Below are positions 19,286 to 53,069 of a stretch of 58,646 nucleotides of DNA, in pieces. Under the pieces are notes generated by a model. The model did not search any database. It had not been told where the DNA came from and saw only the letters and a program-made list of their open reading frames with translations. Source of the stretch: a virus; IMG/VR virus record IMGVR_UViG_3300028873_000026, positions 1 to 58,646 of that record. One strand, written 5' to 3'. Made by a program: the position numbers and the translations under genes. Positions within the stretch are counted from its first letter, which is position 1. Each line of letters opens with the position of its first letter.

Positions 19286-19576
19286 GTGAGTACCCAAGAA
19301 GACCGGCTCGAAATCACCACGATCAGCAGCACGGGGATCACCCCTGAACAGGTCGAAGCCGAAGCCAAACGCTTTGCCATGCGAACAGGCGGCATCTTGC
19401 TGATGGCCATGGCCGAACGGGGCCTCACCGAGGACCAACTCGCTGGTATGCTCCAGGTGAACAAGCGTCAGATCCGTGGCCAGCTGATGGGCGAGCACTG
19501 GAGGAGCTATCTCCCGATGGCTGCTCTGTGCCTGGCTCTCGGGATCAAAATGGATCTGCGAACACAACAGAATTAG
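19286..19576 (+). CDS. Cro/C1-type helix-turn-helix regulator
   Basis: 96 residues from a GTG preceded by AAGGAG; an earlier GTG at 19262 lacks a ribosome site. The C-terminal half has a five-helix XRE-like layout with the HTH ERGLTEDQLAGMLQVNKRQI followed by LCLALGIKMDLR. The N-terminus has an extra acidic region. Single-domain HTH proteins of this size act as repressors or Cro-like switches. In a phage that also carries integrase, this is a candidate lysogeny regulator. Its stop codon lies within the first helix of the RNA region that follows. Confidence 0.62.
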   Translation: MSTQEDRLEITTISSTGITPEQVEAEAKRFAMRTGGILLMAMAERGLTEDQLAGMLQVNKRQIRGQLMGEHWRSYLPMAALCLALGIKMDLRTQQN

Positions 19577-23489: not shown

Positions 23490-24055
23490 TGCAGCTCGAC
23501 AAGCTCTGGGAGCTGGAGATCGGCGAGTGGATGCACGCTTGCTTTCACGGCGTCTCCGATCCCGAGACCGGCAAAGATCTCAACATCGTGAACGACCCGG
23601 ACGAGCGTAATCATCGCTTCCTTGAAGAGGCGCTTGAGCTTGTCCAGGCCTGCGGCTGCACTCGCTACGACGCCCATGCTCTTGTTGATTACGTGTTCGG
23701 TCGACCAGTCGGCGAGAAATTCCAGGAAGTCGGCGGCGTCATGGTCACGCTGACTGCACTTTGCAACGCGCACAGGATCAGCATCGTCAAGGCAGCCTTG
23801 GCTGAGCTTCGCCGGATCTGGACGAAAGTCGAGCAGATTCGAGCCAAGCAAAAAACAAAGCCCCAGCTTCGCTTCCAGAAAAAAGAAATCAGCCAGATCG
23901 GCGAACTTTATCGCCGAATCGCTCACCTCGAAAGGCAGCGAGACGACCTCCACAAGCACAACAATGAACTTCGGGATCGAGCCATGAAGGCTGAAGATCG
24001 CCACCGGAGGTTCATTCAGTCCTTCAAAGATACCACCGCAGCGGACTTGCTATGA
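23489..24055 (+). CDS. MazG-like NTP pyrophosphohydrolase with coiled-coil tail
   Basis: 188 residues. The first 95 carry a MazG-type all-helical domain: RNHRFLEEALELVQACG has the ExxxE metal site, and YVFGRPVGEKFQEVGGVMVT supplies the second acidic helix. Such enzymes hydrolyse non-canonical or excess NTPs to NMPs. The last 90 residues are a Lys/Arg-rich coiled coil (IAHLERQRDDLHKHNNEL) not present in simple MazG proteins. Coupled to ThyX, it fits nucleotide pool control. Confidence 0.75.
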   Translation: MQLDKLWELEIGEWMHACFHGVSDPETGKDLNIVNDPDERNHRFLEEALELVQACGCTRYDAHALVDYVFGRPVGEKFQEVGGVMVTLTALCNAHRISIVKAALAELRRIWTKVEQIRAKQKTKPQLRFQKKEISQIGELYRRIAHLERQRDDLHKHNNELRDRAMKAEDRHRRFIQSFKDTTAADLL

Positions 24056-24978
24056 CCACCATCAGCGCCAAATCGATCCTCGCTTCGAGGCACGCCCTCG
24101 ACCACAACATCGTCGGCCACACGATCCTGTGTCGCTACCCTCGGCCTATCCATGCCGAGGTGCTGACGCACAAGGTGTTCTCTCGGAACGCAGGCTCCAG
24201 CCGTGCCCTTCCGGTAAAACGTCTGATCCAGGACGTGATCAATGATCCCTTCGTGCCTCTTTATTGGGGTGCGAACCAGAAAGGAATGCAGGCGGGCGAA
24301 GAGATCAACACCCAGGTTTGGGTGTCTGACCAGATACAGCCTAAACGCAGTCGTACTCGCAGCCTCACCCGTGAACAAGCCTGGGAACGGGCTATGTGGC
24401 TTGCCATCGATATGGCTGAAGCCTTCGATGCGGCCGGCTACCACAAGCAGATCGTGAACAGGCTTTTGGAGCCCTTCAGCCACATCACCGTGCTGATCAC
24501 GAGCACCCAATGGTCGAACTTCCTGGCTCTTAGGGACCATCCGGACGCCGAACCGCATATCCAGATTCTCGCTCGCGAGATCCGAAAAGCGATCGAAGGC
24601 GCTGATGTTCGAACTCTTCAGCCCGGTCAGTGGCATCTGCCATTTATCACAGATGAGGATCGTGCCGACCTTGCCGGGTTCTACAATCCAGACGAGGAAG
24701 CCTATCAAGAAGGTCTAAGAAAGCTCTCTGTCGCTCGATGTGCGTCGACCTCGTACAAAACCGTCGAGGGCTTCGACATGACTTTGGAGAGGGCCTTGGC
24801 GATCTACGACAAGCTCCGGACGGCCGACATCCTTCATGCTTCGCCGTTCGAGCATCAGTTCCAAATGGACGAGCCCGGCTCAGGTTTTCACGGTAAGTGG
24901 CTGAATGAACACCTGGGTGGAAACCTTGGCCCTGGGGTTATCCAACTTAGGAAGACACTCCCGAACGAGTGCCTCTAG
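24052..24978 (+). CDS. thyX: FAD-dependent thymidylate synthase
   Basis: 308 residues, ATGA overlap. The ThyX signature appears in the variant form AEVLTHKVFSRNAGSSRALP (about 35-54), as in the longer phage and alphaproteobacterial ThyX-like group, with LLEPFSHITVLITSTQWSNF and later ARCASTSY and SPFEHQF. It methylates dUMP to dTMP using methylene-THF and FADH2. The usual RHRxxS appears as THKxxS. Located with dCTP deaminase, MazG-like and dNMP kinase functions. Confidence 0.88.
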   Translation: MTTISAKSILASRHALDHNIVGHTILCRYPRPIHAEVLTHKVFSRNAGSSRALPVKRLIQDVINDPFVPLYWGANQKGMQAGEEINTQVWVSDQIQPKRSRTRSLTREQAWERAMWLAIDMAEAFDAAGYHKQIVNRLLEPFSHITVLITSTQWSNFLALRDHPDAEPHIQILAREIRKAIEGADVRTLQPGQWHLPFITDEDRADLAGFYNPDEEAYQEGLRKLSVARCASTSYKTVEGFDMTLERALAIYDKLRTADILHASPFEHQFQMDEPGSGFHGKWLNEHLGGNLGPGVIQLRKTLPNECL

Positions 24979-24989
24979 GTTCCTTTAAT

Positions 24990-25018
24990 TTGACCTGATT
25001 CGCTTCTTGTTTCATGAT
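24990..25018 (+). promoter_or_regulatory. Sigma-70-type promoter for excisionase/integrase
   Basis: TTGACC (24990-24995), a 17-base spacer and CATGAT (25013-25018) match host -35/-10 elements at the ideal spacing. It lies 35 bases before the excisionase-like gene in an AT-rich gap, so the lysogeny cassette could be read by host polymerase independently of phage polymerases. Confidence 0.5.
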
Positions 25019-25052: not shown

Positions 25053-25442
25053 ATGAGCGTGCGAGTTCCGATTGACGAGATCGCAGAAAGGCTGTGTGTC
25101 AGCCGGCGTGCTATCTACAATATGGCTGCTCTGGGGGACATCCCTGGAGCGGCCAAGTTCGGAAGGCACTGGACATTCGACAAAGCGAAGTTCGAGCGCT
25201 GGATCCTCGACCGTGAGAAATTATGCCACGAGCAGGGACTTCTTCGAAGGGCGATGAGAAAAACCTCTACCAGCGAAATGGCGTCTGGTGGCTCAAAGCG
25301 TATATCGACAATGTCGAGTACCGAGAAAGTCTTAGAACGAACAATCTCCGAGATGCTCGGCAAAGACGGGACAAGCGGATCAAGGCGCTCCAGGACGCCG
25401 CACGCTTCAACATCCACCAACACACATGGGATGAGGCGGTAG
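25053..25442 (+). CDS. Excisionase-like MerR/HTH protein
   Basis: 129 residues. The first 55 match DNA-binding excisionase-type HTH proteins: VPIDEIAERLCVSRRAIYNM, then GDIPGAAKFGRHWTFDKAKF and ERWI. The rest is Ser/Thr/Arg-rich and coincides with the integrase gene in another frame for 220 bases, an unusually long overlap. The functional protein may end earlier, or the tail may be a by-product. Likely role: directing excision, or controlling integrase. Confidence 0.65.
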   Translation: MSVRVPIDEIAERLCVSRRAIYNMAALGDIPGAAKFGRHWTFDKAKFERWILDREKLCHEQGLLRRAMRKTSTSEMASGGSKRISTMSSTEKVLERTISEMLGKDGTSGSRRSRTPHASTSTNTHGMRR

Positions 25443-26272
25443 CCTCATGGTGGGCTCACGCCAAAGCTGACCTCAGTCCCCAGACGGCCAAACGGTATGG
25501 CGTCAGCTTCAAGCAGTGCTTACCCTTCCTGCAAGGCAAAGACATAGAGGCCATCGACGGCTCGACGATCAGCGCCATAATGGCTTCCCGTAGAGCTGCT
25601 GGCGTCAAGCCGGCCACGATTCGCAGAGACCTGACGGCGATCTCCCGTGTCCTAGAATTCGCCGAGGGCGAGGGCTGGCGAGAGGGCAATCCCACACTCA
25701 GCAAGCGACGAACGATCAAAGAGCGCCGAGATCCGATCGTGCTTCCCAAACCCGATGAGGTCGAGGAAATGATCGAGGCTTGCTCCTCCCATTTTGCCTC
25801 CCTGGTTCGCGGAGCCTGGTACACTGGCTGTCGTCAAGGAGAGCTGGTCAATGCCAAGTGGCGAGACTTCAACGAAGCCGCTGGGACACTCGAAGTCACT
25901 GGCAAGGGCAACAAGCGAAGGGTCTTCACCCTCTCGGATCGAGCCCTGGAGCTCTTCAAGAGCCAGAAAGCCAAGAGGCTCTCAGCCACCCATCCGATTT
26001 TTCCCGCTGAAAGTGGAGAAGCGTTTGCCGAAGCGGCGTCCGACTACACACACTTTAGGCGTAGAAAGCTTCTCGATGCAGAGAAGGCCGGACAGTCGTT
26101 TCGACGCTTCCGTTTTCACGATTTGCGTCATCTATTCGCCGTGGAGTATCTACGGGGAGAGAGAGCCAGCATCTATCGGCTCTCAAAAACCCTCGGTCAT
26201 ACGAGCGTCAAGACAACGGAGATCTATCTCGAGTTCCTGACCCCGGAGGAAGCCGAAAGGGTCAAGGAGTGA
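25223..26272 (+). CDS. int: Tyrosine recombinase integrase
   Basis: 349 residues. N-terminal arm-binding domain (NLYQRNGVWWLKAYIDNVEY), SAM-like core-binding domain (about 70-155), then the catalytic domain with all key residues: Arg204 in YTGCRQGEL, Lys229 region in VTGKGNKR, His299 and Arg302 in FHDLRH, His326 in LGHTS, and Tyr335 in TTEIYLEF. It catalyses site-specific recombination between attP and a host tRNA gene. The stop codon lies four bases before the first arm-type repeat of attP. Intact by all visible criteria. Confidence 0.94.
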   Translation: MPRAGTSSKGDEKNLYQRNGVWWLKAYIDNVEYRESLRTNNLRDARQRRDKRIKALQDAARFNIHQHTWDEAVASWWAHAKADLSPQTAKRYGVSFKQCLPFLQGKDIEAIDGSTISAIMASRRAAGVKPATIRRDLTAISRVLEFAEGEGWREGNPTLSKRRTIKERRDPIVLPKPDEVEEMIEACSSHFASLVRGAWYTGCRQGELVNAKWRDFNEAAGTLEVTGKGNKRRVFTLSDRALELFKSQKAKRLSATHPIFPAESGEAFAEAASDYTHFRRRKLLDAEKAGQSFRRFRFHDLRHLFAVEYLRGERASIYRLSKTLGHTSVKTTEIYLEFLTPEEAERVKE

Positions 26273-26275
26273 GAG

Positions 26276-26530
26276 CAGCACAAGAACCAGCACAATCATA
26301 CGGCTTCAGCAGGTATGTTATAGGACTAAGTAGCTGAAGTCATTGAGTTAGGAAGGATGGCCGAGTGGTTTAAGGCAGCGGTCTTGAAAACCCATTCCGG
26401 CTTCTTCCAACAAAATTTAAGAAATCCGATTTTAGTAATCATTTCAATGCGCTACCTACAAGATATACTGCGCATTTAGGGTCCTGTCAGACTCCTTTAA
26501 GGTACACAAACCAGCACAGCAAACAGCACA
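26276..26530 (+). other. attP: attP with tRNA-Ser-derived core and paired arm sites
   Basis: The core at 26351-26392 is identical in plan to the 5' half of a bacterial tRNA-Ser(UGA): acceptor strand, D arm (GGCCGAGTGG) and anticodon loop (GTCTTGAAAACC). It then diverges. Flanking it are two pairs of CAGCACA, at 26276 and 26288 on the left and at 26512 and 26524 on the right. All four are in the same orientation, each pair with a 12-base period. This is the layout of a phage attP with arm-type integrase sites. Integration would split a host tRNA-Ser gene and presumably restore it. Confidence 0.8.
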
Positions 26531-26583
26531 ATTTGTTCCCTCTATGTTTTCTTAGGGGAACGGATTCGCGCTGGTTTTCGCTT

Positions 26584-26620: not shown

Positions 26621-26656
26621 TATTAGTTCTCCAAAACTGAACCAAGGAACGAAACC

Positions 26657-29158
26657 ATGCAGGTCACTCACGCTGCCGACCACATCACCCACGCAGTCAT
26701 CGGAGGCGCCAAGACCATCGAGTTCGGGATCTCCAACGACGCAGCGTTCTTTCAGATCCTGAGCAGCTCGCTCTATTCGAACCAGCGCCTGGCTGTCGCT
26801 CGTGAGGTGCTCTGCAACGCCTGGGATGCTCATATCCGGGCCGGAATCACCGATCGACCGGTCAAAGTCGAGGTCACCGACGAGAAGATCGTCGTCCGGG
26901 ACTACGCTTTCGGCATTGCTCCCGACATGATGGGGCCTCTCTACGGCACCTATGGCGGCTCCGACAAGAAGAACAACGGCACGGAAACGGGCGGTTTCGG
27001 TCTGGGCTGCAAGAGCCCCTTCGCCTACGGCGATCACTTCGAGGTCGTCTCGTACCACTGCGGGACGAAGACGATCTACAACCTCTCGAAGAGCTCGGCC
27101 GACAAGTTCGGCAAGCCAGGCATCACCCCGATTGTCTCCATTCCCACGCAGGAAACGGGCCTTCAGGTCACCATTCCTCTGAAGACCCGCGGTGATCGTG
27201 GAGTCTTCGAACATCACTTCAGCAGTGTCGCCTTCAACGGCGAGATGAACGTGCTGATCAACGGCCAGCAGGCGCCCAACATCCCGCTCTCCAAGGCCCA
27301 GGGCAACTGGCTGCTCGCCACAGAAGGCATCGGAGACCTTCATGGGATCCGGATCTATGTGCGCTATGGCAACGTCATCTATCCCGTGCCCCAGCATGAA
27401 GAGATTCGTTCGCTCTATGGGCAAGTCATCTCCTTCCTGAACTTGTTTTCAGGGCGGTATGAAGCTGAGGCCTACAAGATCGTGTTCCAGGCGAAGCCGG
27501 ACACAATCTCGGTCACCCCATCTCGTGAGTCCCTGTCCATGCAGGAACACACGATCAAAGCGATCCGAGAGATCTTTCAGGATTTCTTGAGTGAACAGCT
27601 CAGCGTTCAGATCGCCAAAGAGGCTGAAGGACTTCTGCTGACCCAGATCGAGTACGCCAAGGAGCAGCGTCTCATCGGTGAACTGATGTCTCCGTTGAAG
27701 AACCTGCCCGGTCTGAAGAACAAACAGACCGACGACATCAAGTTCCTCGGCAATATCCAGGATCTGACGGCGCAATACACCCGTCGAAACTATCCGGGAA
27801 CGAGCAGTTTCTATCGGAAGGACATGGGACTTCGGATCGATACCGCTATCGAGCTCGGAGTGGGTGATCGTGGCACGCTGAACCAAGTGAAGCACCGCCT
27901 CACCACAGATCTCCCCAAAAAGAGGCCTGTTCGGGTGGATGCCAAAGGTCATCCGCACTACATCGCTCCGCTCAGTGCCCATTCCTGGTTCAAAAAGCGA
28001 GTTCTTCGTCCCCTTTATCGGGACTTAGAGGCCAGTCCAGTGATGGATCGGCAGAGACTCTACATTGGGGATGAGAATTCCTATGTAGTGGGCCACCTCG
28101 CTCCGCCTCACAGCTTGCGCTACAAAGAATATGGAGACTATCTCTCCATTCTGCGCAAGGTTGTGGTGCTCACTTATGCCAAGAAGGACATTTGGCATAA
28201 GGTCCGGTATGACCGAGAAGTGCTGACCCACGGTTCATCCAGTGGTGTCTGGCTCTACCACGCTCCTCTTTCGAGGACGAAGATCAATGAGATCCGAAAG
28301 TTCTTCACTGATCGGAACTTCATCGTGGTCGACTGGACCTCGGAAGTTAACTGGGCAAAGCATAAGACCTACAAAGCTCCAGTCGTTACCGATGAAGTTC
28401 GGCTTCCCAAGCCCAAGCTTGAAGGTTTCCCTGCTCTCAACGGCGTTCATGTGCCGAACAGGCAGACTCGGGTCGACAACTGCTTCCGAGAAGGTGCTCC
28501 TCGGGTAGACAATCCTCTCTTTTATATTCGAGTGATCTACTCGAAGGCAGAGATCCGGGGGTTCGACCTCAATCAGTTCGAGACAAGTGCAGCGAACATC
28601 ATCGTCAAGCTCTTCGGAGATGTGTGCGCTGTTGTTCGAACTGAACCTCAAGAGAAGAAATTCAAGGAACAAGGTCTAATGGAGCTCACTGACTATGTGG
28701 TGAACTACGTCTGCAACGAAGTCACCACGTCTCCGTCGCTCCAGGCCTATTGGCCTGAGTGCGTCAATCGAGACGTCATCAACAAATCAAACGGCACAGT
28801 AGCAAATCAGTTGCTGTCGGCTCTATTCGACATCGAAGAAGTACGAGCAGCTTTTGGGCTCAAGTCTGTCCTGAACAGCCATGATCTGATGGTGCTTTCG
28901 CTTTGGCGTTATCTTGTAGAGACGGGTGTCTACAGCCACAAAATAAAGGATAACCCTGCGTTTATTGCGGCTGAACGTCATGTAAAGTCTCAGCCGTTTT
29001 CGAGGATCATCACTGATACTCGAAATAACGCCAATTCGAACGCTTTCGTCGATTTGCTGAACTTCACAAAGCTTCAGCAGATCCTGCGGAACCCGTCCGC
29101 AAAGGCTGACGGCAGTCTCGATCGGATTGCCAAGCTCACACATGCCCTTCTGGGCTGA
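26657..29158 (+). CDS. rIIA: rIIA-like protein
   Basis: 833 residues from an ATG with CCAAGGAAC upstream. A GHKL ATPase domain is visible: ALCNAWDAH-type N box (EVLCNAWDAHIRAG), DYAFGIAPDMMG (G1) and TGGFGLGCKSPFAYGDHF (G2). A long C-terminal region carries no known domain. rIIA-like proteins are membrane-associated and in T4 help avoid exclusion by lambda Rex. N4-like phages carry an rIIA/rIIB pair at this point in the map. It directly follows attP. Confidence 0.88.
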   Translation: MQVTHAADHITHAVIGGAKTIEFGISNDAAFFQILSSSLYSNQRLAVAREVLCNAWDAHIRAGITDRPVKVEVTDEKIVVRDYAFGIAPDMMGPLYGTYGGSDKKNNGTETGGFGLGCKSPFAYGDHFEVVSYHCGTKTIYNLSKSSADKFGKPGITPIVSIPTQETGLQVTIPLKTRGDRGVFEHHFSSVAFNGEMNVLINGQQAPNIPLSKAQGNWLLATEGIGDLHGIRIYVRYGNVIYPVPQHEEIRSLYGQVISFLNLFSGRYEAEAYKIVFQAKPDTISVTPSRESLSMQEHTIKAIREIFQDFLSEQLSVQIAKEAEGLLLTQIEYAKEQRLIGELMSPLKNLPGLKNKQTDDIKFLGNIQDLTAQYTRRNYPGTSSFYRKDMGLRIDTAIELGVGDRGTLNQVKHRLTTDLPKKRPVRVDAKGHPHYIAPLSAHSWFKKRVLRPLYRDLEASPVMDRQRLYIGDENSYVVGHLAPPHSLRYKEYGDYLSILRKVVVLTYAKKDIWHKVRYDREVLTHGSSSGVWLYHAPLSRTKINEIRKFFTDRNFIVVDWTSEVNWAKHKTYKAPVVTDEVRLPKPKLEGFPALNGVHVPNRQTRVDNCFREGAPRVDNPLFYIRVIYSKAEIRGFDLNQFETSAANIIVKLFGDVCAVVRTEPQEKKFKEQGLMELTDYVVNYVCNEVTTSPSLQAYWPECVNRDVINKSNGTVANQLLSALFDIEEVRAAFGLKSVLNSHDLMVLSLWRYLVETGVYSHKIKDNPAFIAAERHVKSQPFSRIITDTRNNANSNAFVDLLNFTKLQQILRNPSAKADGSLDRIAKLTHALLG

Positions 29159-42174: not shown

Positions 42175-42392
42175 TGGGCGACATTGGCATCCTGATCATC
42201 GGGGTGCTGGTGGTGATCGCAATGTTGATGATCACTTCGGTGATCATCGCATTGGCCCCATATATCGCCGGAATTCTCGTAGTTCTGGGGCTTTGCTGGT
42301 TCACCTTCAGGCCAAAAAGGGGATGAGGAATCATCCCCTTTTTCACGTCAATGCAGCAGCTGAGCCAGAGGGTGCATCATCGGAGCCCTGAG
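42174..42392 (+). CDS. Small membrane protein at the end of the rightward block
   Basis: 72 residues, ATGA overlap. Two hydrophobic segments cover residues 4-44 (ILIIGVLVVIAMLMIT, then IIALAPYIAGILVVLGLCWF). The rest is short and polar. The reading frame runs through the bidirectional terminator and into the 3' end of the convergent vRNAP gene, so only its first 45 codons look protein-like. A shorter true form cannot be excluded. Confidence 0.45.
42315..42344. terminator. Bidirectional terminator between convergent blocks
   Basis: AAAAA-GGGGATGA-GGAA-TCATCCCC-TTTTT is a perfect 8-bp stem with a GNRA-type tetraloop, flanked by five A residues on one side and five T residues on the other. It is symmetrical enough to stop both the rightward replication transcript and the leftward vRNAP transcript. 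Confidence 0.92.
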
Positions 42393-45300
42393 CATCATGC
42401 CTGGGCCGATCGAGTGCAGGAGGTTACCCTCCAACGCCTTGCCGAACACGTTGTCGCCGAGGAAGTTCTCGACGCCCACGGTGCTTGAGAAGGGTCCAAG
42501 AGATCCCAGCAGTGTGTGGACGGGATTATCCCGAACCACCGACAGAGCGATCTTCGCGCTTCGCAGCTTATAGTTGTAGAACCATGCAAGCCCCAGCTCT
42601 TCCAGAGAACCGCGGAAACGTCCCTGAGACCGATCGAAGTTCACGAACTCTTCGCTGACCTCGCCTAGCGCTTTCTGGCTCGTCATGCCCGGCTTCTTCA
42701 TCAAGTGGTCGTAGTAGAGCGCTTTCATGATGAAATCGCCGTACTCCATCGACTTCTGGATGCCCTGATAAAGGGGCGTGTCTTCCCCGATGAGGGCATA
42801 GTTGCCGGCAGTTCGCACTGCCTCGGGGAGTTTGCTCGTCAAACCCTCCATGAACTCCTGCAACCTGCCTCCTGTGAGGGCCAGGTCACCTCTTGAGTTG
42901 CCTACGTCGGCGACCATTCCGAACTCACCAGCCTTGATGAGGGGCCAGATCGACAGACGACGATCACTGTCGTTGATCGACTGGATCTCAGCCTTGAGCT
43001 TCTGGACTTTGTTGTAGTTCTTGGCTCCCTGAGCAGCGAAGAGCTCACCCTCGGCATCCATTTTGCGAAGCTTGCCCTTCACATGGGCGTTGATCTCGGA
43101 GAGTTTCTGGGGAGTGCTCTTGGCAATCGTCGCCAGTGGCACTCCACGACCCATGAGCTGAAAAGTATCAGCCGCAAGGTTCACTGCCGGCATGAGCAAG
43201 CTCTTGATCATAATGATCGACTTGACCTCTTTGACGGCTTCTTTCCACACACCTTCGGAATTCACGAGGTTCGCGTAGGCTTTGTTGCCCCAGATCGCCA
43301 TCGAGATGTTCTTTACAACATCGAGTGTCTCGGGAGACCATCGGGAATTCCCGGTCCAAGCGTCACCAATGCTCGCCTTGTGGTAGCCGATCGAGTCATT
43401 GATCATGTCCCGGCGCACCATGAACTTGTTGCCGAAAACGCTCTTGATGTAGGCCTTCGTCTGCGGCGACATGAGCGAGACAGCCTGCCTCGTAGGCGCA
43501 TCGTTGTCGTAGGACTTCGGATCGAACAGGTTCACATATTGCGACTTGTTCGCAGCGCTCTTCTGGATGTCGCTCTTGTACATCTCGTGCATCTTGTCGA
43601 TCAGCTCGGTGTTGAACTTGTGAGCCACCGCTTCTTCGACCTGGCGACCCCGCCAGACGCCCGCCATCCTGGCAAGGTTGTCATCTAGCCCGAGACGCGC
43701 AAGCTGGCTGGGATCGACGCTCCGCTCGAAGGCGACCACCTTCCCGGAGTCGTTGTACAACGGCACGAGGTTCTCGGAAGTGGCTTTACCCTCCCTCGAA
43801 AGCTGCCGAGCAATCTTGTCGACGGTGACCGGGTTCGTAATGAGCCCTGCCGTCACACCTGTGGTTTGCCCGGTCTGAAGATCCACGCCTCCGGCCGTGT
43901 GGTGAATGGATTGCAGCGTGCCCTGGGTGAACGCAGCCCGGCCTGCTGCCGGCTGGTAGTAGTAGCCCTTGCTCTCGTGGTTCCCCTCGGCTTTCGAGCC
44001 TTTGTAGTCGGCAATCCGGATCATGCTCTTGGCGAGAAGAGCCGGCGAATCGCTGTCTTTGGCGACGACAATGCTCATCCCGGCTTTCTGGTTCATAGGC
44101 ACGAAGCCCTTGTAACTATTGAACTTGGCCATGCCCAGGGACTTGGCTTTCTCCTCCAGACGAAGGTTGTTCACATAGGCAAGCACGAACTTCATGCCCT
44201 CGGCTTCGCTTTGAACCAAGGAAGAGAGATGCGCCTGCGTCTCGGGAGCGAGCTTGTTCAGGGCATAGAGCGAGATCAGCTGGTCGAGCGCTTTCACATA
44301 GGCTTCCGTGGGCGCAGGTCGGCTCATGGAGTGGTTCTCGCCCAGGAGACGAGCAATCGCATCGGCATTGCGCAAGAGGTTCCTGCCAATGGCCCCCGAC
44401 GTCATGTGGGTGGCGAGCTGCTCGGCTTTGGCTTTGACGAGCGCCCAGTAGCGGGGATCTTCCTTTTCGAGCTGGGTCTCCAGACCCTGGATCACAGAAC
44501 TTCGAGCCTTGGGATTGCTCAGCATTTTGAGCACGTCTTCGTGCGAATGCGCTTCCGTCAGGGCCGAGAGATCCGTCTTGGCGACGCCCATATGCAGGGC
44601 GCTCCACTCGGTTTTGGTCATCCTCTGGGTAAACTGCTTCTCGAACATCTGCGGGACGTGATCCACGAACTGCTGGCGAGCATTTTGGATGATCGCCCGG
44701 ACAGTCTTGATCATGTCGTAGACGCTGGCATTGCTCGCCGAACGGCCAATGATTTCGCCCACAGCTTCTGTCAGGGGCTTCCAGCCCTTGACATTGTTAT
44801 TGATTCCGCTGGCCCATTCCTGGAGCCCTCGGGCTTTCTCGGCTGTCGCCATATTGGCAAAGAGCTTCACAGCCTCGGCGCCCTTTTGGACGAGCGAATT
44901 GCTCGTGCTCGCTTTGACTTTGTCAGCGCCCTGGAGGAGCACATCGCTCGCCCTGTCGAGGAGGTTCACAACCCCGTCGTTCAAGATGTTGATCCCCTTG
45001 TTCGGGGCAGAAGCGATCTGATTGATTTGACTCATCAAAGACGCAGTGTCTGACGCCTCCCTCGCTACATGCTGGGTGAGAGCGTCGATCGCTTGCTGGA
45101 CGTTCTTGGAGTTGCCCACTCCGCCCATGCGATCCGAGAGCGAGTCCAGGCCCTGCTGGGCCAGGTTCGAAAGGCGAGCCTCGAAACGCTCAGAGAGAGA
45201 GCCTTTCTCATGGCTCTTTTCGGACTTAGGCAGATCTAGAAAGCTCAGAGCATCCCTGAAGTCGTCATCGACCGTGGCCAGAGCCATGAAGACGGGCAAC

Positions 45301-48300
45301 AGCGAAGAGCGTCCCGATTTATCAGTTTCGGTGCCCAGATTGCCCAGCAGGAAATTGAACTTCGAGTTGGCCATGCTCTCGGCCCGAACCCTGTCGGGAT
45401 CGCTTTGGTCGATGAGCATATCGGGGGTGAGCTGCTTCATGGCGTGCCGGAAGAGCCCCTCAGCGATAGCCATCGAAGTGGGCGAGAGGCTCATCTCCAG
45501 GGAGAGCGCCTGCACAATCGCATGGAACGCTTTGTGAGCCTGAAGCGACATCCCGTTGAAGCCGCTCAGTTCTGCGAGATTCGCCAGTTTGAACGACGAG
45601 ACCGACGCTTGCTGGACGGCAATCGATCGGTTCGTGGCCTGCACCGGGTCGCTCACATTCATGAAGCGGCCGAAGATCTTGTCGAATTGCACATTGAGCG
45701 CACTAAGGCGATCGTCCGTGCCGTAAGACGGGTTCTGGAAGAGCGTCACAGACCTATTGAGGTCGGCGATCGTGGGCTGAGCCTGCATGACCACAGCCGA
45801 ATTGAAGAGCAGATTCGAGAACATATCGTCCCCGACATGGAGAGCCTGGTTCTTGCCGAACACGAGGGTCTTGATCGCCTGCCAGACGTCCGAAGCGATC
45901 TTGGCCAAGCCGGTGGCTTGGGTGTTTTTGAGGGCTCCCGTGAGTTCTTTGTTGGCCAGCGTCCACGCCATGAACTCATTCAAGGCCGTGGCTTTCCCCA
46001 GAGGAGTCTTCTGGGCCAGAGCGTCTCGGACAGCTTTCGAAGCGTTGAAGAAACTATCTCCAGCTTTTACGCCAATTTCTGAGAATTCCGGGCTCAGAAA
46101 CTGCCTCATGAGGGCTTCGAGCCGGTTCACAGAACCAGTGATCTCACTGGCTCGTTTCCCTAGATCGCCCCCTTCGTAGTGGGTCAGGATCGTATTGAAA
46201 GTAGCAGCGTGGACAGCCTCATGCAGCATCGTCTCAGCGCTCGATCCGACGAGGTAGATCATCTTGCTGCCTGGATCGATCAAGCCCTTGGCAGACTTGA
46301 GAGAAGTCTGTTCAATGGCCGGCAGGTTATTGTTGGCTCGATATTCGTCGATCTGGGCGCGAGTGCCAGACAAAATCCGATAACCATCCAGTCCCCCAGC
46401 AGCCTTGATATGCTGCCAGACGTCCTGTTGATCCGCGGACAGCTCCGACTGGGCAATGCCCAAGTCAAGATCGGTCGGCGTCATTACCACGAGGGCCGGT
46501 TTATCGCTTTTGGCTTTGAGGACTTCAGCCAGCCGATTGTTGAGTTTGCTGGCGATCTCTTCAGGCGAACCAGAAAGGGGAATACCCTTGTTCAGGTAGG
46601 GACTCTGAGCCCCGGCCATCTGGTCAACGTAGAACTGGTGCTCGCCGAGCACCTGGTGTCGGGCGTCCACGACGTTGGCGCCATCCGAGAGTTCATCTCG
46701 GAAACCCTCCAGAATAGCGATCACACCAGTGGAAGTCGCATTTTTGCGCTCGGCCTGGGGAAAGAGCGCTTTGATGAGGGCGTCTTTCATCTTTTCGTTT
46801 TTGTCGAGCATCTCTGAACTGATCGACTTCAAGAAGGGCTCGAAGCTCTCCAGCACAGCCCGGAGAGGGTTCCCCTTCCAGGACTCAGAAGCAGCCTCGT
46901 TCGCTTTCTGGCTCCCTTCGAGGACATGATCGAGAGCGAAATTGAAGCCGTCGAACACAGGGAGACCACGAGCGCCATTGTTCAGCATGTGCTGGATCAT
47001 GGCTCCGTCACCCATGCCGATATTAAGCATGGCTCCGCCCTTCACTCCCGAGTCCGAAGGGCCATTCACTTCAGCCGGAGTGCCCAGCTTGCCATCAAGG
47101 CTCTTGGCGAGGATCTGGTCGAACTCACTCGTGTTGTTCTTGACCGGGAAGAAGCGCTGCTCTCCTGTGTCGATCAGGGGCATGGTCTTGAGCAGGTCTT
47201 GCAAAATGCCTTTGAGGGCATTCTCCGACAGAAAGTCTCCCTTACGCCAGGTCGGGTCATTCTCAGCCCGCTGAGCGACAGCCTCTTTCACCTTCTGGGT
47301 GAACAGATGCTCAAGCACGATCGACTGAGCCTGCGTGGACCGTTGCACAAGCTTGGTCGAGTCCATGAAGGACTGGCCTAGAGTCTCGGTGATCCCATCT
47401 CGCATCGGATCGACGAAGAGACTGAGCACATGCTCTTGGATCGAAGCCATCTGCTTCTTGTCAAAGACGAACTTCTCGGGGTTGATCTCTGAGAGAGCTT
47501 TGCCTCCGGAAGGATCTCCTCCCACTTTGGTGGTCAGAATTCCGTTGAGGGCCTTGTCAAAGGCATCGAGCCGGTCATCATGGCCTTCACCGGTGGAGTC
47601 TCCAAACATTGCCTCAGCAAAAGAGACTTCTTTGTCCGCTCCAGCCACACGAGAGAGACGCTCGTAGACCTGTTCAGCGAGCATGTCCGTGATCTTTGCA
47701 GCGATGCCATTGGCTCCAGACCCATAGACGGTGATCGTCATCGGGTTCTTGGTGACGCCACGATCCACAGAGAGCGTGCCTGTGCTAAGGTCGAAGTCGA
47801 CCTTCGGCAAGAGCAGGTTCATCAGCTTGTAGAGGTGATCGGCCTGAGTTTTGACGGCTTCAGGGGCATTCCTGTAAAGCGAGTTTGCACTGCTCTGGAG
47901 CTTGTTCGCAGCCACCGAATAGAGATCTACGCTGTCCCCCGCCCGATGCTCGTTCATCGTGGTGGGACCGTTGAAGAACATTCCCCCTTTGGCCAGATTT
48001 CCGATCTGGTCTCCCGTGAAACCTGTGGTGGTGAGCATATGGATAGCGTTGACGATCCCGTTCGTCACTCCGTCAGCCTCGAGATAAATCCCGGTACGAA
48101 ACGCAGTGCGACCCTTGTCGCCCACAGTCTGGGATCGAGCCCATTCCTGAAGAGCATGAAGAGCGTTAGGGGTAAGGTCCTCCCCCGCAGCCTGGAACTC
48201 GCTCTGGATGCGCTCTATAGCGCCGTCAGGGAGCCGTTCATCGTTGAGATGCTCAGTAAGCAGCTGCAACGTACCGGCAAATGCGCCGTTCAGTTGAGCT

Positions 48301-51300
48301 TCGACCTTGGCGAGGTTCGTTTCCGTGCTGTTAGCGTGGATCTTGACCCCAAGAGCCTGGGCGATGGCGGTCTTGAATAGCGTCTCCTGGTCGGGATCAG
48401 TCAGATCGAGCGTGCTCCAAGTCGGAAGCACGATCTCTCGGACCAGCTTCGAAGCCTGGGGATTATCAGCCCCCAGCATCTGAAGACGTCCCACACTCGA
48501 CACGTTGAAGGCATAACGCATGGGGATCTTCCCCAGCTCCTGACCAAACGTGTTCATGTCAGCCACACGTCCCGAAAGAGTGCGCCAAGCCGAGCGTATC
48601 GTCTGGTTCTGACCCTCAAGAGTGAGCTTGTGCTGAGCATTCAGAGGCCGATCAGTGTCGCCAGCCCCGAAGAGCGATAGAAGCCCCTTCTCCCCTAGCG
48701 CATTGTAAAGCTGGAACAGTTCCATGTTCAGGAAGTGCTCGACCCCCTGAGCGACCTTGATCATGGAACGCTGGGTGCTTGTCAGAGGCACCACAAGATT
48801 TCGCATCTGGGTCTTTGCCACCGGGATCTTGTCGTCGGCGTAATAGTCCCGCTCTTTGGGCTCGGTGAGCACAGTCTGTTCGATCAAATTCGGGTTCTGA
48901 AAGAGCGGATCTTGGGTATCTTTCGAGGCGTTGCCTCGATCCAGGTTCGAAACGAGCCTCTGGAGAGTGCGCTTCTTGGTCTCTTCGCCATAGGCCAAGG
49001 GAGAGACGCTATCCCCATCGATCACGAAACGCAGCCGCTGAAGAAGCCCCTGCTCGCCCTTGGGCTGGGACTTGTCGATCACAGTCTCTTCGAGAGCCCT
49101 GAGCACCTCAGTTGCCATCGCTTGAGCGATACCGTCAGTGTAGGCCTTGTCGACGTTGGGGTTTTTCTGGACCCCCCAGAAATCTACGATCTTGCTGGCG
49201 AGCGAACGCACGGCTTCCACCGGCGAGAGCCCGACATCGAGCATTCCTACATGGCGCTCGGCCTGATCACTGGGGATCCCAGTGAGCGCACTCACCAGGT
49301 CTGCATCCATGTCGGATCGATAATTGTTCGACACCAGCAGCCACTGGAGGCCTGCCAAGACAGCCTGGCCGGCGATCGCCGGATTGTACTTGAATGAGCC
49401 ATCTTCCTGCTGCTCGACCAAGTTCGAAGCCTTGAGCTCGGTCCAGCGATTAAGGGGTTCCCCCTTCACCAGACGCTCAGCGAGACCCTTTTCGCCCAGC
49501 TTTGCGTTGAAACGCTCGTTCAGCGTGTCGATCAGCTGAGGTGCAAAATCCAGATAGGCTTGGACTGTCCGGATCATGGGCTTGGTGAGCGTGCCCCGAA
49601 TTTTGTCCTCACCCACAAACGCCACACGAGCGTCATTGGATCGAAGAGCATTCTTGACGGTCTCGACAGGCGAGTGATCCCCGAAGATCCTGCTGGAGAT
49701 CTCCTTGGTGGCTTTATAGGCGTGCTCAAACCAGTTCTTGACCGGCCCATCCCCTGCTTGGTGCAAGTTGGGGTAGGCTTCCTGGATCGTCTTAGGAGCT
49801 TCCTCCGCTCCCTCGCTTGTCTTCACATCCTTCGAAAGCTCCTCCGGCTGCGCCTCCGTCGATTTCTCAGTCTGTGAAGTCTTCGCGGGTGTCGCGTCGG
49901 CTTCGGATTGGGGCTTGGTTTTCTCCTCCTCCGCTCCCTGGTTTTGCTCGGGGAGCAAAACCGGTGTCGCTTCGGTTTTGGACACACTCTTTTCGTTCCT
50001 GGTGATCGCCGGAACGGGCTTGGGAGCACGATCTGCGTTTGGAACCAGGGAAGGCTGAACACGGGTGCCAGCTTTGTGCTCAGCAAGCACGTCTTGGACC
50101 TTCCCTTGAAGGTTCTTGGTCAAGGGGGTGCTCTGGCTCTGGCCGCCTTCGAGTTCGGGGAAAGCCTTCGAGAGACCGTTGTAGATGTCCGAAACCTGCT
50201 TGGCTTCGAGCGAAACCCGTTGAGCGTATTCGACGCTCTTGGCATTGGTGGGATTGACGCTCTGGGCGAAGTTGCCCTTGGTCTGATACCAGGCCCGAGA
50301 CTCCGGATTGATGGCGAGGTTCGAGACTTTGGCGCCGCCGCCGTTCTCGTAGTGCTGGTTCAAAGCCGCTGCTTTGTTCTGCATGTGCTGCACGAAGTCG
50401 CCGAAATCAGCGAGGTGCGCCTTCGCAGTCTCGATGTCTCCCGATCGAACCGACTGGAAAATGCGCAGCGCATAAGACGTGGCAGACCGAGCCTGGTTTG
50501 CCTTGGCTCCAGACCGGGTGAGAATGTCTTGGGTCACGGAACCCATGGGGCTCTCATGCCCGGCAGCCTGCTGGGCGAGAGTTCCCTCTCGGGAAGCCTG
50601 CATGATCGCCACAGAGCTCTGGAGAGCCTTGAGCTGATCCGGCTCCAGTTTGACTTCGCCGTTCTCGACATGCGCCAAGATCGCTTTGTTCGCTTCAAGG
50701 TTCCCCTTGTCCGGGGCCTCAGAAGCGATCGTCGCAGCATTGGCGATGTTCTGTTGGCCTTCAGGAGTGTGAAGGCTCTCTTGGGTCACCGGCTGGATGA
50801 GCTTCTCGACTTGGTCCTGGGTGAGCTGAGACACTTGCGTCAGCGCCTTGGAGACAGTCGGATTGCTCCGGATGTTGTCGGCCAGCTGATTGAATTGCTC
50901 GTTGATCTGACCCGCTACGTGGTCATCCGGGAGAGCCTCGAACCCTGCCGGATCGCTCTCGGTGAGGGCTTGGTACTTCCCGATCTGATCATGGAGGTAC
51001 GAAGCAGCCGAAAGCCCCTCTTGGGTGGTGACACCCTTGTCGTTGACGATGTTCGCAAGCTTCTGGAGCATGTCGACTCGATTGGCCGAACCCGCCAGCT
51101 GCTTCTTCACTGGTTCAGGGAGGGTCGAATTCGCGATCTCTTCGGGATCGAACTGACCCAACTGGGTGATCTTGTCGGCAATAGGGGCGAAGTCGGGGCT
51201 TTTCTGCACTGCGTCATGCAAAGCCACGGCTGCCATAGGATCGCTCATCGTCGCTTGGACGGCAGCCCCTTGGTGAGCCACTTGGGCATCCGAGACAGGC

Positions 51301-52952
51301 GAAGCCGCCTCAGTCGCAGCCTTGACGGGCGCAGCAGCTTTCGCTGCCGCTGAACCAACGAGGCCAAGAGCAGCGTTCCCTACTGTGCCAGCTCCGGAAA
51401 GGGCAGCTTTGCCGGCCATCTTGAGAGGCGTGCCAGTGAGCGAAGGAGCCTGAGTGATCGCCGCAGAACCGAAGCCACCCAAGGCCGCAAGACCCGTCTG
51501 CTGGGCAACACCCTCACCGAGATCCTGGTTGGGGTTCGCTGTCTGTTGCTTGCCGATGTTCTCCGAGAGCGTGTCCGTCGCTCCGAGACCACCTTCATGC
51601 ACGGTTTCTTTGAGGAGATCGGCTCCAGCGTGAGCAAAGCTCTTGAGCGAGAAAGGATGCTTCTCGAAGTCAGCAATCGAGGTGGCCTTGGCTACACCCA
51701 TCGAAAGAGGGGCAGCCACAGCCGCTGCAAGAAGACCAGCCCTGTTCGCCACCTGGTAGCGAGCATCTTCGGGACTCATGCCACCGGCAACGAGCTCACG
51801 GAACATGGGCGAAGTCTTCGCCAACTCGGCGGGATCCGTATTCGCGATGTCGGTCGAGGTGTTCTGATAGGTGCTGGAGCCTTCCACGGCGCCCATGCTG
51901 GTGAGCATCTCGTTGGGAAGAGCTTTGCCGATAGCGTCAGCGGCTCGAGAAACCGAAGGCAAACCCAATTCACGAGCAATCGCAGCCTCTGAACCGATCG
52001 AGAGCCGAGTCGCTTCGGGAACGATTGCTTTGCTCAAAGCCCCGAAAGTCTTGCCCGTAGGGCCAGCCCCAATGAGCGAACCAACGAACTGAGCGGTGTT
52101 GTCCGCCAAGAGGGCAGGGTTCTGGACCGTGTTCTTCACGGCATCGTAGGCGTCAGATCCGAAGTTCTCAGCCATCCCAGCGAGGGTTCGAGCCCGGATC
52201 TTCGCCCCTGCAACGAAGTCACTGTCGCCATTGGCTTTGTCAGCGACGTATTGCTGGGCGATACCCTGGTCCTGGGTGTCCTGAGCCGCAGCATTATCTC
52301 GCATATCGAGAGCTGTGCGATCTTCATTCGCACTCGTCTGGTTCTGAAGCCCGATCGACTTGAACCCACCCACATAATCGCTGGCATTCTTCAGCATCTG
52401 AGCGGTGGAGACGCCCATGTGAGTGTTCACACCAGCCGCATTGAAGCCGAGATCCGCTGCTGCAAGGGGCACAGTGGCCAAGCCACCGATGGCGATAGCG
52501 CCCTGACCGAGACCGAGAGCAGCATCCTTGAGCATTGAACCGGGAGTGCTGGTCGCTCGACCATCGTAAGCATCACCTGCTTGGTTCAAGCCAATGAGCA
52601 TTCCCTGACCGACTTCAGGGCCATATTTCTGGATGATCTGGTCGGGTCCGAGGGTCGCAAGATCCTTCTCGACCGGGTTCGCAGAACTGAGTCCCGATCC
52701 CGTGCGGCGAGCAATCGCTGCATTCAGGAACGTCTGCTTATCCGGCAGACCCCCCATATCGACTTTCTTGGAGTCAGAAGCCGCAGCAACCTCGGCTTGC
52801 TTCTCAGGAGCAGCCTGAGCGACAGCCGCCTGCTTCACCAGAGGAGTGGGAACGGGTGTCGGGACAGGTGCAGGAGCGGACCCTGAGAAAGCCGGCACCG
52901 GGGACGGATTCGTCCCGAGTGCAGAGCTGAGCAGATCCGACACGTTCGCCAT
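42348..52952 (-). CDS. Virion RNA polymerase (N4 gp50-like vRNAP)
   Basis: 3,534 residues from the ATG at 52952; an ATG at 53006 is less supported. The size equals N4 vRNAP (about 3,500). T7-like motifs lie in the middle: NVSSVGRLQM (TxxGR type, near 1484), EADGVTNGIV (A, near 1626), RGVTKNPMTITVYGSG (B, near 1737) and LPVFDGFNFALD (C, near 2001). Their spacing agrees with the N4 enzyme as I recall it. The N-terminus is Pro-rich. The C-terminal half carries a zincin-like HEAVH (2244) and long helical regions. It is injected with the DNA and transcribes early genes from hairpin promoters. Confidence 0.95.
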   Translation of the reverse strand: MANVSDLLSSALGTNPSPVPAFSGSAPAPVPTPVPTPLVKQAAVAQAAPEKQAEVAAASDSKKVDMGGLPDKQTFLNAAIARRTGSGLSSANPVEKDLATLGPDQIIQKYGPEVGQGMLIGLNQAGDAYDGRATSTPGSMLKDAALGLGQGAIAIGGLATVPLAAADLGFNAAGVNTHMGVSTAQMLKNASDYVGGFKSIGLQNQTSANEDRTALDMRDNAAAQDTQDQGIAQQYVADKANGDSDFVAGAKIRARTLAGMAENFGSDAYDAVKNTVQNPALLADNTAQFVGSLIGAGPTGKTFGALSKAIVPEATRLSIGSEAAIARELGLPSVSRAADAIGKALPNEMLTSMGAVEGSSTYQNTSTDIANTDPAELAKTSPMFRELVAGGMSPEDARYQVANRAGLLAAAVAAPLSMGVAKATSIADFEKHPFSLKSFAHAGADLLKETVHEGGLGATDTLSENIGKQQTANPNQDLGEGVAQQTGLAALGGFGSAAITQAPSLTGTPLKMAGKAALSGAGTVGNAALGLVGSAAAKAAAPVKAATEAASPVSDAQVAHQGAAVQATMSDPMAAVALHDAVQKSPDFAPIADKITQLGQFDPEEIANSTLPEPVKKQLAGSANRVDMLQKLANIVNDKGVTTQEGLSAASYLHDQIGKYQALTESDPAGFEALPDDHVAGQINEQFNQLADNIRSNPTVSKALTQVSQLTQDQVEKLIQPVTQESLHTPEGQQNIANAATIASEAPDKGNLEANKAILAHVENGEVKLEPDQLKALQSSVAIMQASREGTLAQQAAGHESPMGSVTQDILTRSGAKANQARSATSYALRIFQSVRSGDIETAKAHLADFGDFVQHMQNKAAALNQHYENGGGAKVSNLAINPESRAWYQTKGNFAQSVNPTNAKSVEYAQRVSLEAKQVSDIYNGLSKAFPELEGGQSQSTPLTKNLQGKVQDVLAEHKAGTRVQPSLVPNADRAPKPVPAITRNEKSVSKTEATPVLLPEQNQGAEEEKTKPQSEADATPAKTSQTEKSTEAQPEELSKDVKTSEGAEEAPKTIQEAYPNLHQAGDGPVKNWFEHAYKATKEISSRIFGDHSPVETVKNALRSNDARVAFVGEDKIRGTLTKPMIRTVQAYLDFAPQLIDTLNERFNAKLGEKGLAERLVKGEPLNRWTELKASNLVEQQEDGSFKYNPAIAGQAVLAGLQWLLVSNNYRSDMDADLVSALTGIPSDQAERHVGMLDVGLSPVEAVRSLASKIVDFWGVQKNPNVDKAYTDGIAQAMATEVLRALEETVIDKSQPKGEQGLLQRLRFVIDGDSVSPLAYGEETKKRTLQRLVSNLDRGNASKDTQDPLFQNPNLIEQTVLTEPKERDYYADDKIPVAKTQMRNLVVPLTSTQRSMIKVAQGVEHFLNMELFQLYNALGEKGLLSLFGAGDTDRPLNAQHKLTLEGQNQTIRSAWRTLSGRVADMNTFGQELGKIPMRYAFNVSSVGRLQMLGADNPQASKLVREIVLPTWSTLDLTDPDQETLFKTAIAQALGVKIHANSTETNLAKVEAQLNGAFAGTLQLLTEHLNDERLPDGAIERIQSEFQAAGEDLTPNALHALQEWARSQTVGDKGRTAFRTGIYLEADGVTNGIVNAIHMLTTTGFTGDQIGNLAKGGMFFNGPTTMNEHRAGDSVDLYSVAANKLQSSANSLYRNAPEAVKTQADHLYKLMNLLLPKVDFDLSTGTLSVDRGVTKNPMTITVYGSGANGIAAKITDMLAEQVYERLSRVAGADKEVSFAEAMFGDSTGEGHDDRLDAFDKALNGILTTKVGGDPSGGKALSEINPEKFVFDKKQMASIQEHVLSLFVDPMRDGITETLGQSFMDSTKLVQRSTQAQSIVLEHLFTQKVKEAVAQRAENDPTWRKGDFLSENALKGILQDLLKTMPLIDTGEQRFFPVKNNTSEFDQILAKSLDGKLGTPAEVNGPSDSGVKGGAMLNIGMGDGAMIQHMLNNGARGLPVFDGFNFALDHVLEGSQKANEAASESWKGNPLRAVLESFEPFLKSISSEMLDKNEKMKDALIKALFPQAERKNATSTGVIAILEGFRDELSDGANVVDARHQVLGEHQFYVDQMAGAQSPYLNKGIPLSGSPEEIASKLNNRLAEVLKAKSDKPALVVMTPTDLDLGIAQSELSADQQDVWQHIKAAGGLDGYRILSGTRAQIDEYRANNNLPAIEQTSLKSAKGLIDPGSKMIYLVGSSAETMLHEAVHAATFNTILTHYEGGDLGKRASEITGSVNRLEALMRQFLSPEFSEIGVKAGDSFFNASKAVRDALAQKTPLGKATALNEFMAWTLANKELTGALKNTQATGLAKIASDVWQAIKTLVFGKNQALHVGDDMFSNLLFNSAVVMQAQPTIADLNRSVTLFQNPSYGTDDRLSALNVQFDKIFGRFMNVSDPVQATNRSIAVQQASVSSFKLANLAELSGFNGMSLQAHKAFHAIVQALSLEMSLSPTSMAIAEGLFRHAMKQLTPDMLIDQSDPDRVRAESMANSKFNFLLGNLGTETDKSGRSSLLPVFMALATVDDDFRDALSFLDLPKSEKSHEKGSLSERFEARLSNLAQQGLDSLSDRMGGVGNSKNVQQAIDALTQHVAREASDTASLMSQINQIASAPNKGINILNDGVVNLLDRASDVLLQGADKVKASTSNSLVQKGAEAVKLFANMATAEKARGLQEWASGINNNVKGWKPLTEAVGEIIGRSASNASVYDMIKTVRAIIQNARQQFVDHVPQMFEKQFTQRMTKTEWSALHMGVAKTDLSALTEAHSHEDVLKMLSNPKARSSVIQGLETQLEKEDPRYWALVKAKAEQLATHMTSGAIGRNLLRNADAIARLLGENHSMSRPAPTEAYVKALDQLISLYALNKLAPETQAHLSSLVQSEAEGMKFVLAYVNNLRLEEKAKSLGMAKFNSYKGFVPMNQKAGMSIVVAKDSDSPALLAKSMIRIADYKGSKAEGNHESKGYYYQPAAGRAAFTQGTLQSIHHTAGGVDLQTGQTTGVTAGLITNPVTVDKIARQLSREGKATSENLVPLYNDSGKVVAFERSVDPSQLARLGLDDNLARMAGVWRGRQVEEAVAHKFNTELIDKMHEMYKSDIQKSAANKSQYVNLFDPKSYDNDAPTRQAVSLMSPQTKAYIKSVFGNKFMVRRDMINDSIGYHKASIGDAWTGNSRWSPETLDVVKNISMAIWGNKAYANLVNSEGVWKEAVKEVKSIIMIKSLLMPAVNLAADTFQLMGRGVPLATIAKSTPQKLSEINAHVKGKLRKMDAEGELFAAQGAKNYNKVQKLKAEIQSINDSDRRLSIWPLIKAGEFGMVADVGNSRGDLALTGGRLQEFMEGLTSKLPEAVRTAGNYALIGEDTPLYQGIQKSMEYGDFIMKALYYDHLMKKPGMTSQKALGEVSEEFVNFDRSQGRFRGSLEELGLAWFYNYKLRSAKIALSVVRDNPVHTLLGSLGPFSSTVGVENFLGDNVFGKALEGNLLHSIGPGMMLRAPMMHPLAQLLH

Positions 52953-53069
52953 GAGTAAGTCCAACCCGGAGGGTACAATTGCGAAGACCCTATAGGCTGA
53001 CTTCAACGAATAGAAGGCCCCGTTTGCACGAGGCCCTCCTAGATATACTCACTACAATTTAGATATAAC

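Follow-up and report, generated by a model that had tools for sequence, protein, structure and literature searches.

What is a tyrosine integrase doing in the genome of an N4-like phage, a member of a group that is widely treated as strictly lytic? The stretch of DNA considered here, hereafter the window, is a virus record of 58,646 bases (IMG/VR IMGVR_UViG_3300028873_000026, positions 1–58,646), and at 25053–26532, between ThyX and rIIA, it holds an integration module made up of an excisionase-like gene, a tyrosine integrase and attP. The explanation that we favor, and in which we are fairly confident, is that an N4-like phage carries an apparently intact xis–int–attP module, probably acquired, for integration into tRNA-Ser(UGA).

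Identity of the Phage and Its Genome Map

The hallmark of the N4 group, the virion RNA polymerase, was recognized in a PHROG search of a window ORF (3552 aa, 2473.6 bits):

42348–53006, minus strand: virion RNA polymerase, giant, virion-encapsidated type (phrog_2206)

The window also encodes RNAP1 (phrog_2166), RNAP2 (phrog_2051) and primase (phrog_2135) of N4 type, and DNA polymerase, large terminase, rIIA and rIIB were identified as well. The portal and major capsid proteins of N4 type are absent from the window and are encoded on an overlapping second IMG/VR contig (G001; 54,343 bases), of whose specific stretch seven proteins were searched, and which is 100% identical to the window wherever both overlap. 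This contig runs from window position 26635 leftward to base 1, continues through 15,836 bases absent from the window, in which the portal and major capsid genes sit, and re-enters the window from 58646 to 46775. Together, the window and the 15,836 additional bases give a circular map of about 74.5 kb; genomes of the Schitoviridae are about 70–75 kb long and have short direct terminal repeats. By its gene content, the window phage is a genuine N4-like (Schitoviridae-type) phage. No host DNA was seen on the circular map, and attP is hence observed in the free state; both cassette-bearing contigs show this unintegrated form and may represent one population. Three more IMG/VR contigs (L068, L069, L075) are 99.98–100% identical to the window over the compared parts, and the parts read stop short of the cassette.

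The Excisionase–Integrase Cassette

The genes of the cassette and the borders of its slot are as follows:

24052–24978, plus strand: ThyX, upstream border of the slot (PHROG 5.5e-70; below the Pfam cut-off)
24990–25018, plus strand: possible sigma70-like promoter for xis–int, TTGACC-17-CATGAT (9/12 consensus letters, weak)
25053–25442, plus strand: xis-like gene, 129 aa (Pfam HTH_17 1.9e-9; PHROG excisionase)
25223–26272, plus strand: tyrosine integrase (int), 349 aa (Phage_integrase, PF00589, 2.1e-19; PHROG integrase 1.1e-57)
26657–29158, plus strand: rIIA, downstream border of the slot

An earlier note on this DNA had read an excisionase-like gene and a tyrosine integrase between ThyX and rIIA, with Arg204, His299, Arg302, His326 and Tyr335 as catalytic residues. 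The profile matches to both genes and the PHROG annotation of their neighbors bear this out. Each residue is at the place given, K228 comes in addition, and the complete set (R-K-H-R-H-Y) is invariant across an alignment of the window integrase with seven relatives; the protein is at most 59% identical to any integrase found. xis and int overlap by 220 nt in different frames, the 3′ part of xis lying inside the int region; a comparable overlap occurs in L004, L008 and L082, and relatives of xis (34–40% identity) adjoin related integrases in all four prophages compared. The putative int start, ATG 25223, lies about 39 nt ahead of the first conserved codons, versus about 6–12 nt in most relatives. 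A frameshift at the start of int was considered, an ATG near the relatives' start place being out of frame in the window, and was set aside, the frame being open from ATG 25223. As for the host-type promoter that the note had assigned to the cassette, there is one candidate site, at 24990–25018, and it is weak, with a 9/12 match alone; sites of this quality number three in the 2-kb stretch versus 0.7 in shuffles, the other two lying inside int. An XRE protein had been cited too, and the ORF presumed to be meant (19286–19576) has no Pfam or PHROG match.

The Attachment Site

The region behind int had been described as attP-like, and it proves to be so in a more specific form, namely as the 5′ half of tRNA-Ser(UGA) between two GCACA pairs:

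26278–26294, plus strand: left arm of attP, GCACA pair with 12-nt spacing (26278, 26290), −105/−93 from base 26383
26351–26392, plus strand: 5′ half of tRNA-Ser(UGA), 42 nt, identity block with attB
26380–26392, plus strand: attP core, anticodon stem-loop GGTCTTGAAAACC (common to tRNA-Ser relatives; variant in L081)
26514–26530, plus strand: right arm of attP, GCACA pair with 12-nt spacing (26514, 26526), +131/+143 from base 26383

The earlier reading had missed the key part: the attP core belongs to the 5′ half of a tRNA-Ser(UGA) gene. This half comprises the first 42 nt of the gene and ends in the anticodon stem-loop; it precedes the core, and unrelated sequence follows. ARAGORN calls no tRNA in the window, and the Rfam tRNA score of the stretch, 27.7 bits, falls just below the cut-off of 29. 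The predicted attP is complete in that a core matching host attB was found, with putative arm-type sites on both sides.

Two smaller features lie in the same region. The flank after the core (26393–26409) ends in CTTCTTCCA, which is able to pair with the 5′ strand of the tRNA acceptor, and the 5′ half together with this flank yields the tRNA-like element without a T arm that scores 27.7 bits in Rfam, possibly by chance. Between int and the tRNA half, an inverted repeat (26304–26339; CTTCAGC/GCTGAAG around TATGTTATAG) may act as promoter of the restored tRNA or as a site for a regulator.

Arm-site positions are measured from base 26383 of the window or its equivalent in relatives. The two GCACA pairs are the only ones with a spacing of 12–13 nt in the window on either strand, and dinucleotide shuffles produced such a pair in 48 of 20,000 trials for the left arm and in 10 of 20,000 for the right. 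A left pair with this spacing is present in 12 of 18 related int-side int–tRNA junctions, counts that are not independent, as some of the loci nearly duplicate one another. It stands within 2 nt of the window's place in eight (L004, L005, L010, L082, L083, L194, L201, L202), at −100/−88 in L200 and at −69/−56 in L006, L007 and L009, and is missing in six (L081, L084, L085, L086, L197, L203), among them, with L197, one of the two best precedents for the window's layout. As for the right pair, its place in L005 is that of the window. L006, L007 and L009, which are near-identical, show it at +143/+155, and L207, the distal end of the element in G516, at +119/+131. No GCACA pair of 12–13 nt spacing is present at four further distal ends, L136, L143, L145 and L206. 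Integrated int-side junctions need not retain the phage right arm.

Related Integrases and Prophage Ends

Integrase relatives turned up at 12 loci in a scan of viral_contigs: one is on the sister contig, eight are at 52–57% identity and three are distant. Six of the eight (L004, L005, L006, L007, L009, L010) have the same core after int, followed by a tRNA 3′ half, with no 5′ half before it. L003 and L008 end too early after int and were left out of the layout table, as were L198, L199 and L087, which have no core near int; L081 has a variant core, 351 nt past the match end. The scan of genome_contigs gave 47 loci, of which three belong to Methylocystaceae/Methylosinus (55–58% identity), four to Ancylobacter, Mesorhizobium, Bosea and another Rhizobiales MAG (41–45%), and 40 are distant (at most 31%). 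In the three Methylocystaceae genomes (G062, G063, G064), a tRNA 3′ half lies on the int side; in G063 and G064 an intact tRNA-Ser shares the contig at a distance of 57–58 kb, and in G062 it is on a different contig. The int genes of Ancylobacter, Mesorhizobium and Bosea are followed immediately by an intact tRNA-Thr(UGU), and the displaced tRNA-Thr 5′ half with the core is 56.3 kb away on one contig in Mesorhizobium (G066) and on separate contigs in G065 and G067.

A further search of 397 family genomes found 11 with an integrase at E ≤ 1e-40, eight of them new. L197 and L200 have an intact tRNA-Ser(UGA) immediately behind int, and the displaced tRNA-Ser 5′ half was located 52.3 kb away on the same contig for L197 (G535) and on a second contig for L200 (G516). 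Since both ends were found in G535 and G516, the layout of the window, with tRNA-Ser and a 5′ half, occurs at real prophage ends. L194 has a tRNA-Ser 3′ half at int, and L201–L203 have a tRNA-Thr 3′ half behind int (int side only); at L201, ARAGORN calls an odd 84-nt tRNA-Thr. In the integrase tree, the window takes a position between the groups with tRNA-Ser and tRNA-Thr or next to them, one that is not firmly supported.

Origin of the Module

When 22 window and G001 proteins were compared with the elements of G063, G064, G066 and G535 (E ≤ 1e-5), xis and int were the sole matches, and the G066 element carries genes of myovirus type, among them a tail sheath, and its portal belongs to another family. 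Among 13 integrase-relative records, the N4 primase model matched the window alone, G001 stopping before primase and several records being fragments; the N4 portal model matched 3 of 17 such records or genomes, namely G001, G043 and, weakly (7e-27), G067, on a contig other than that of int. The idea that related integrases reside in N4-like phages was rejected, the primase (1/13) and portal (3/17) screens giving no sign of it. The module was probably acquired horizontally, from unrelated temperate phages of Hyphomicrobiales, and its transfer would have run from those phages into the N4-like one.

The nearest relatives by rIIA, L023 and L024 (52–53% identity), have an HTH gene and no integrase in the ThyX–rIIA slot (L023, 2331–2885, HTH_36; L024, 5386–5886); a tblastn search of the window with the L023 slot protein gave no match. 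L070 and L071 are closer by primase (79%) but short, and the slot is not reached. In all, 55 loci were found by rIIA or primase, and two (G018, G043) of the 49 searched for a Phage_integrase domain were positive, some of these 49 matching rIIA only in part and perhaps not being N4-like. G018 (locus L130, 7426–8610, minus strand) has N4-like rIIA and ThyX, and a very different integrase upstream of ThyX, near the place of the window's slot, which suggests repeated acquisition in the ThyX area. G043 (IMGVR_UViG_3300037589_000163; L128, L129) has an N4-type portal and a different integrase near RNAP2. At the contig end, this integrase adjoins an intact tRNA-Ser(GCT) and a membrane-protein-like ORF that has no match in Pfam. 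The record may represent an N4-like provirus in its integrated state, with one end covered.

Candidate Hosts and the Search for Lysogens

The exact 42-nt block occurs in 2 of 149 genomes of the family of G063 (Methylosinus sp. Ce-a6), both times within an intact tRNA-Ser(tga); with one mismatch it is found in 38 of 397 genomes of the order, and exact in none of them. In-silico recombination of attP with attB of both genomes gave a tRNA-Ser called by ARAGORN in attR (int side) and none in attL (rIIA side). The host is probably a member of the Hyphomicrobiales and would belong to the family of Methylosinus or near it.

The earlier note had proposed a search of bacterial genomes for N4-like prophages bounded by this core, and none was found for this phage in the collections searched. 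An exact attL pattern, made of the core and the right flank, matched nothing in genome_contigs and only the sister contig in viral_contigs, and a weak screen of the candidate host family, covering 298 genomes, yielded no convincing N4-like lysogen. A portal assigned to the N4 portal family (E ≤ 1e-30) is encoded in three of the 298 (L180, L181, L182, in G535, G527 and G622). A tblastn search with 22 window and G001 proteins (E ≤ 1e-5) over 60–80 kb around each of these portals gave no matches, and it misses even the three portals at that cut-off (best 2.4e-5, 20% identity, G535). Because the portals are only distantly similar and have no N4 neighbors at the cut-off, these elements are not close N4-like phages; a more distant N4-like prophage is possible there. 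The three elements are perhaps a related prophage group. The absence of a lysogen from the collections searched is weak evidence. No repressor was recognized in the window ORFs tried (7 in Pfam, 10 in PHROGs), and one could be present unseen, as these ORFs are a minority of those in the window and most PHROGs have no known function. The proposal that the phage may be temperate, or recently was, is supported by the complete-looking module, the exact attB half in candidate hosts and the prophages of the same layout; on the other side stand the missing lysogen and the lack of a recognized repressor. As judged from sequence, the phage is probably temperate.

Proposed Mode of Integration

In the explanation that we favor, the integrase would recombine the phage core, which is the anticodon stem-loop of tRNA-Ser(UGA), with the tRNA-Ser(UGA) gene of the host. 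Because attP carries the 5′ half, an intact tRNA gene would be rebuilt directly behind int, with phage DNA supplying both the 5′ half and the sequence upstream of it, and the displaced 5′ half would be left at the far (rIIA) end of the prophage. Integration into tRNA-Ser(UGA) is likely the function of the cassette; the phage would thereby form lysogens, in which the restored tRNA would be transcribed from phage DNA.

A broader proposal, which we put forward tentatively and hold at somewhat less than an even chance, is that this is a 5′-half mode of lysogeny not yet mapped in N4-like phages as far as searched, in which a host tRNA gene would lose its host promoter, its transcription being moved behind int, and the host would be tied to the int end of the prophage. 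The spacing of core and left arm sites would have stayed largely the same in this integrase lineage as it switched tRNA halves (5′/3′) and tRNA genes (Ser-UGA, Thr-UGU).

Alternative Explanations

A module that is intact, or recently was, might sit in a phage without lysogeny control, the integrase being a passenger, or integration being rare and unstable, so that the phage is lytic in practice. The failure to recognize a repressor or to find a lysogen is in keeping with this account, as is the presence of the N4 transcription, replication and rII genes tested. The catalytic residues, the arm pairs and the exact 42-nt tRNA match, however, are all retained, whereas drift would erode them, and a repressor could be unseen with few ORFs tried and most PHROGs lacking a known function; we consider this account unlikely, but deserving of some weight.

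Much further down the scale, we think it very improbable that assembly joined the integrase–attP segment of another temperate phage to an N4-like genome. Such a chimera would accord with the lack of N4 genes beside related integrases, and the joint with rIIA is seen in the window alone, G001 ending at 26635; but in G001, too, the cassette adjoins ThyX, with 100% identity across 7413 bases, and the GC content of int (0.568) resembles that of ThyX (0.565) and rIIA (0.542). Equally slight is the chance that the tRNA fragment is no att core but is left over from a tRNA gene of the phage or acts as an RNA decoy. Although its 3′ flank can be folded into the tRNA-like element described above, close to the Rfam cut-off, the fragment is flanked by arm pairs and has at its end the core that related integrases use, ARAGORN sees no tRNA in the window, and the same layout marks real prophage ends. 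Our confidence in an intact module for integration into tRNA-Ser(UGA) stops short of a firm one, because the arm pairs are not universal and the lysogen screen is of limited sensitivity.

Comparison with Known Systems

Lysogeny hallmark genes in 54 N4-like genomes, and 40 N4-like proviruses, mainly in Moraxella, are reported in the passages of PMC10654107 cited here. Temperate N4-like phages are thus already in print, which reduces the surprise that the earlier note had drawn from the lytic reputation of the group. Like the window, those viruses combine N4 hallmark genes with an integrase; the window differs in its attP, mapped with a tRNA-Ser 5′ half, and in its probable Hyphomicrobiales host, whereas the same passages give no att site. 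The unusual part is the 5′-half tRNA attP, and not a temperate N4-like phage as such. Among the matches listed, no title or abstract describes an N4-like phage with a mapped tRNA 5′-half attP, which is weak evidence, as subscription journals lie mostly outside the coverage. With attP mapped to the base and a matching host attB, temperate behavior in the N4-like group becomes directly testable by PCR.

According to the relevant passages of PMC8371274, a restored bacterial tRNA retains its own promoter with very few exceptions, and the 5′-half arrangement, with expression from the integrase promoter, is seldom met in bacteria. The pTN3-like integrases of archaea resemble the window in that a tRNA 5′ half is carried, and their restored tRNA is expressed from the integrase promoter (PMC8371274, in the part cited); they differ in being archaeal, and are likened to it by description and not by sequence. 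Phages that supply a whole tRNA instead are described in the cited part of PMC10865867.

Closer comparisons come from the prophages. Those of Methylosinus, of the 3′-half tRNA-Ser type, have integrases 55–56% identical to that of the window, the same core, and a left arm pair within 1 nt of its place; they differ in carrying the tRNA 3′ half, with the intact tRNA at the end far from int, and match the window proteins in xis and int alone. The 5′-half prophages (G535 and G516 with tRNA-Ser; Ancylobacter, Mesorhizobium and Bosea with tRNA-Thr) show the arrangement predicted for the window phage once integrated, in which the intact tRNA follows int and the 5′ half that was displaced lies at the opposite end, but their integrases are only 40–45% identical and the GCACA arm pairs are incomplete in most; in G535 and G066, the two such elements compared, xis and int are again the only matches. 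One integrase lineage, in elements that differ in the tRNA half they carry, thus offers a natural series for how a prophage comes to lie upstream of a host tRNA gene and perhaps to drive it.
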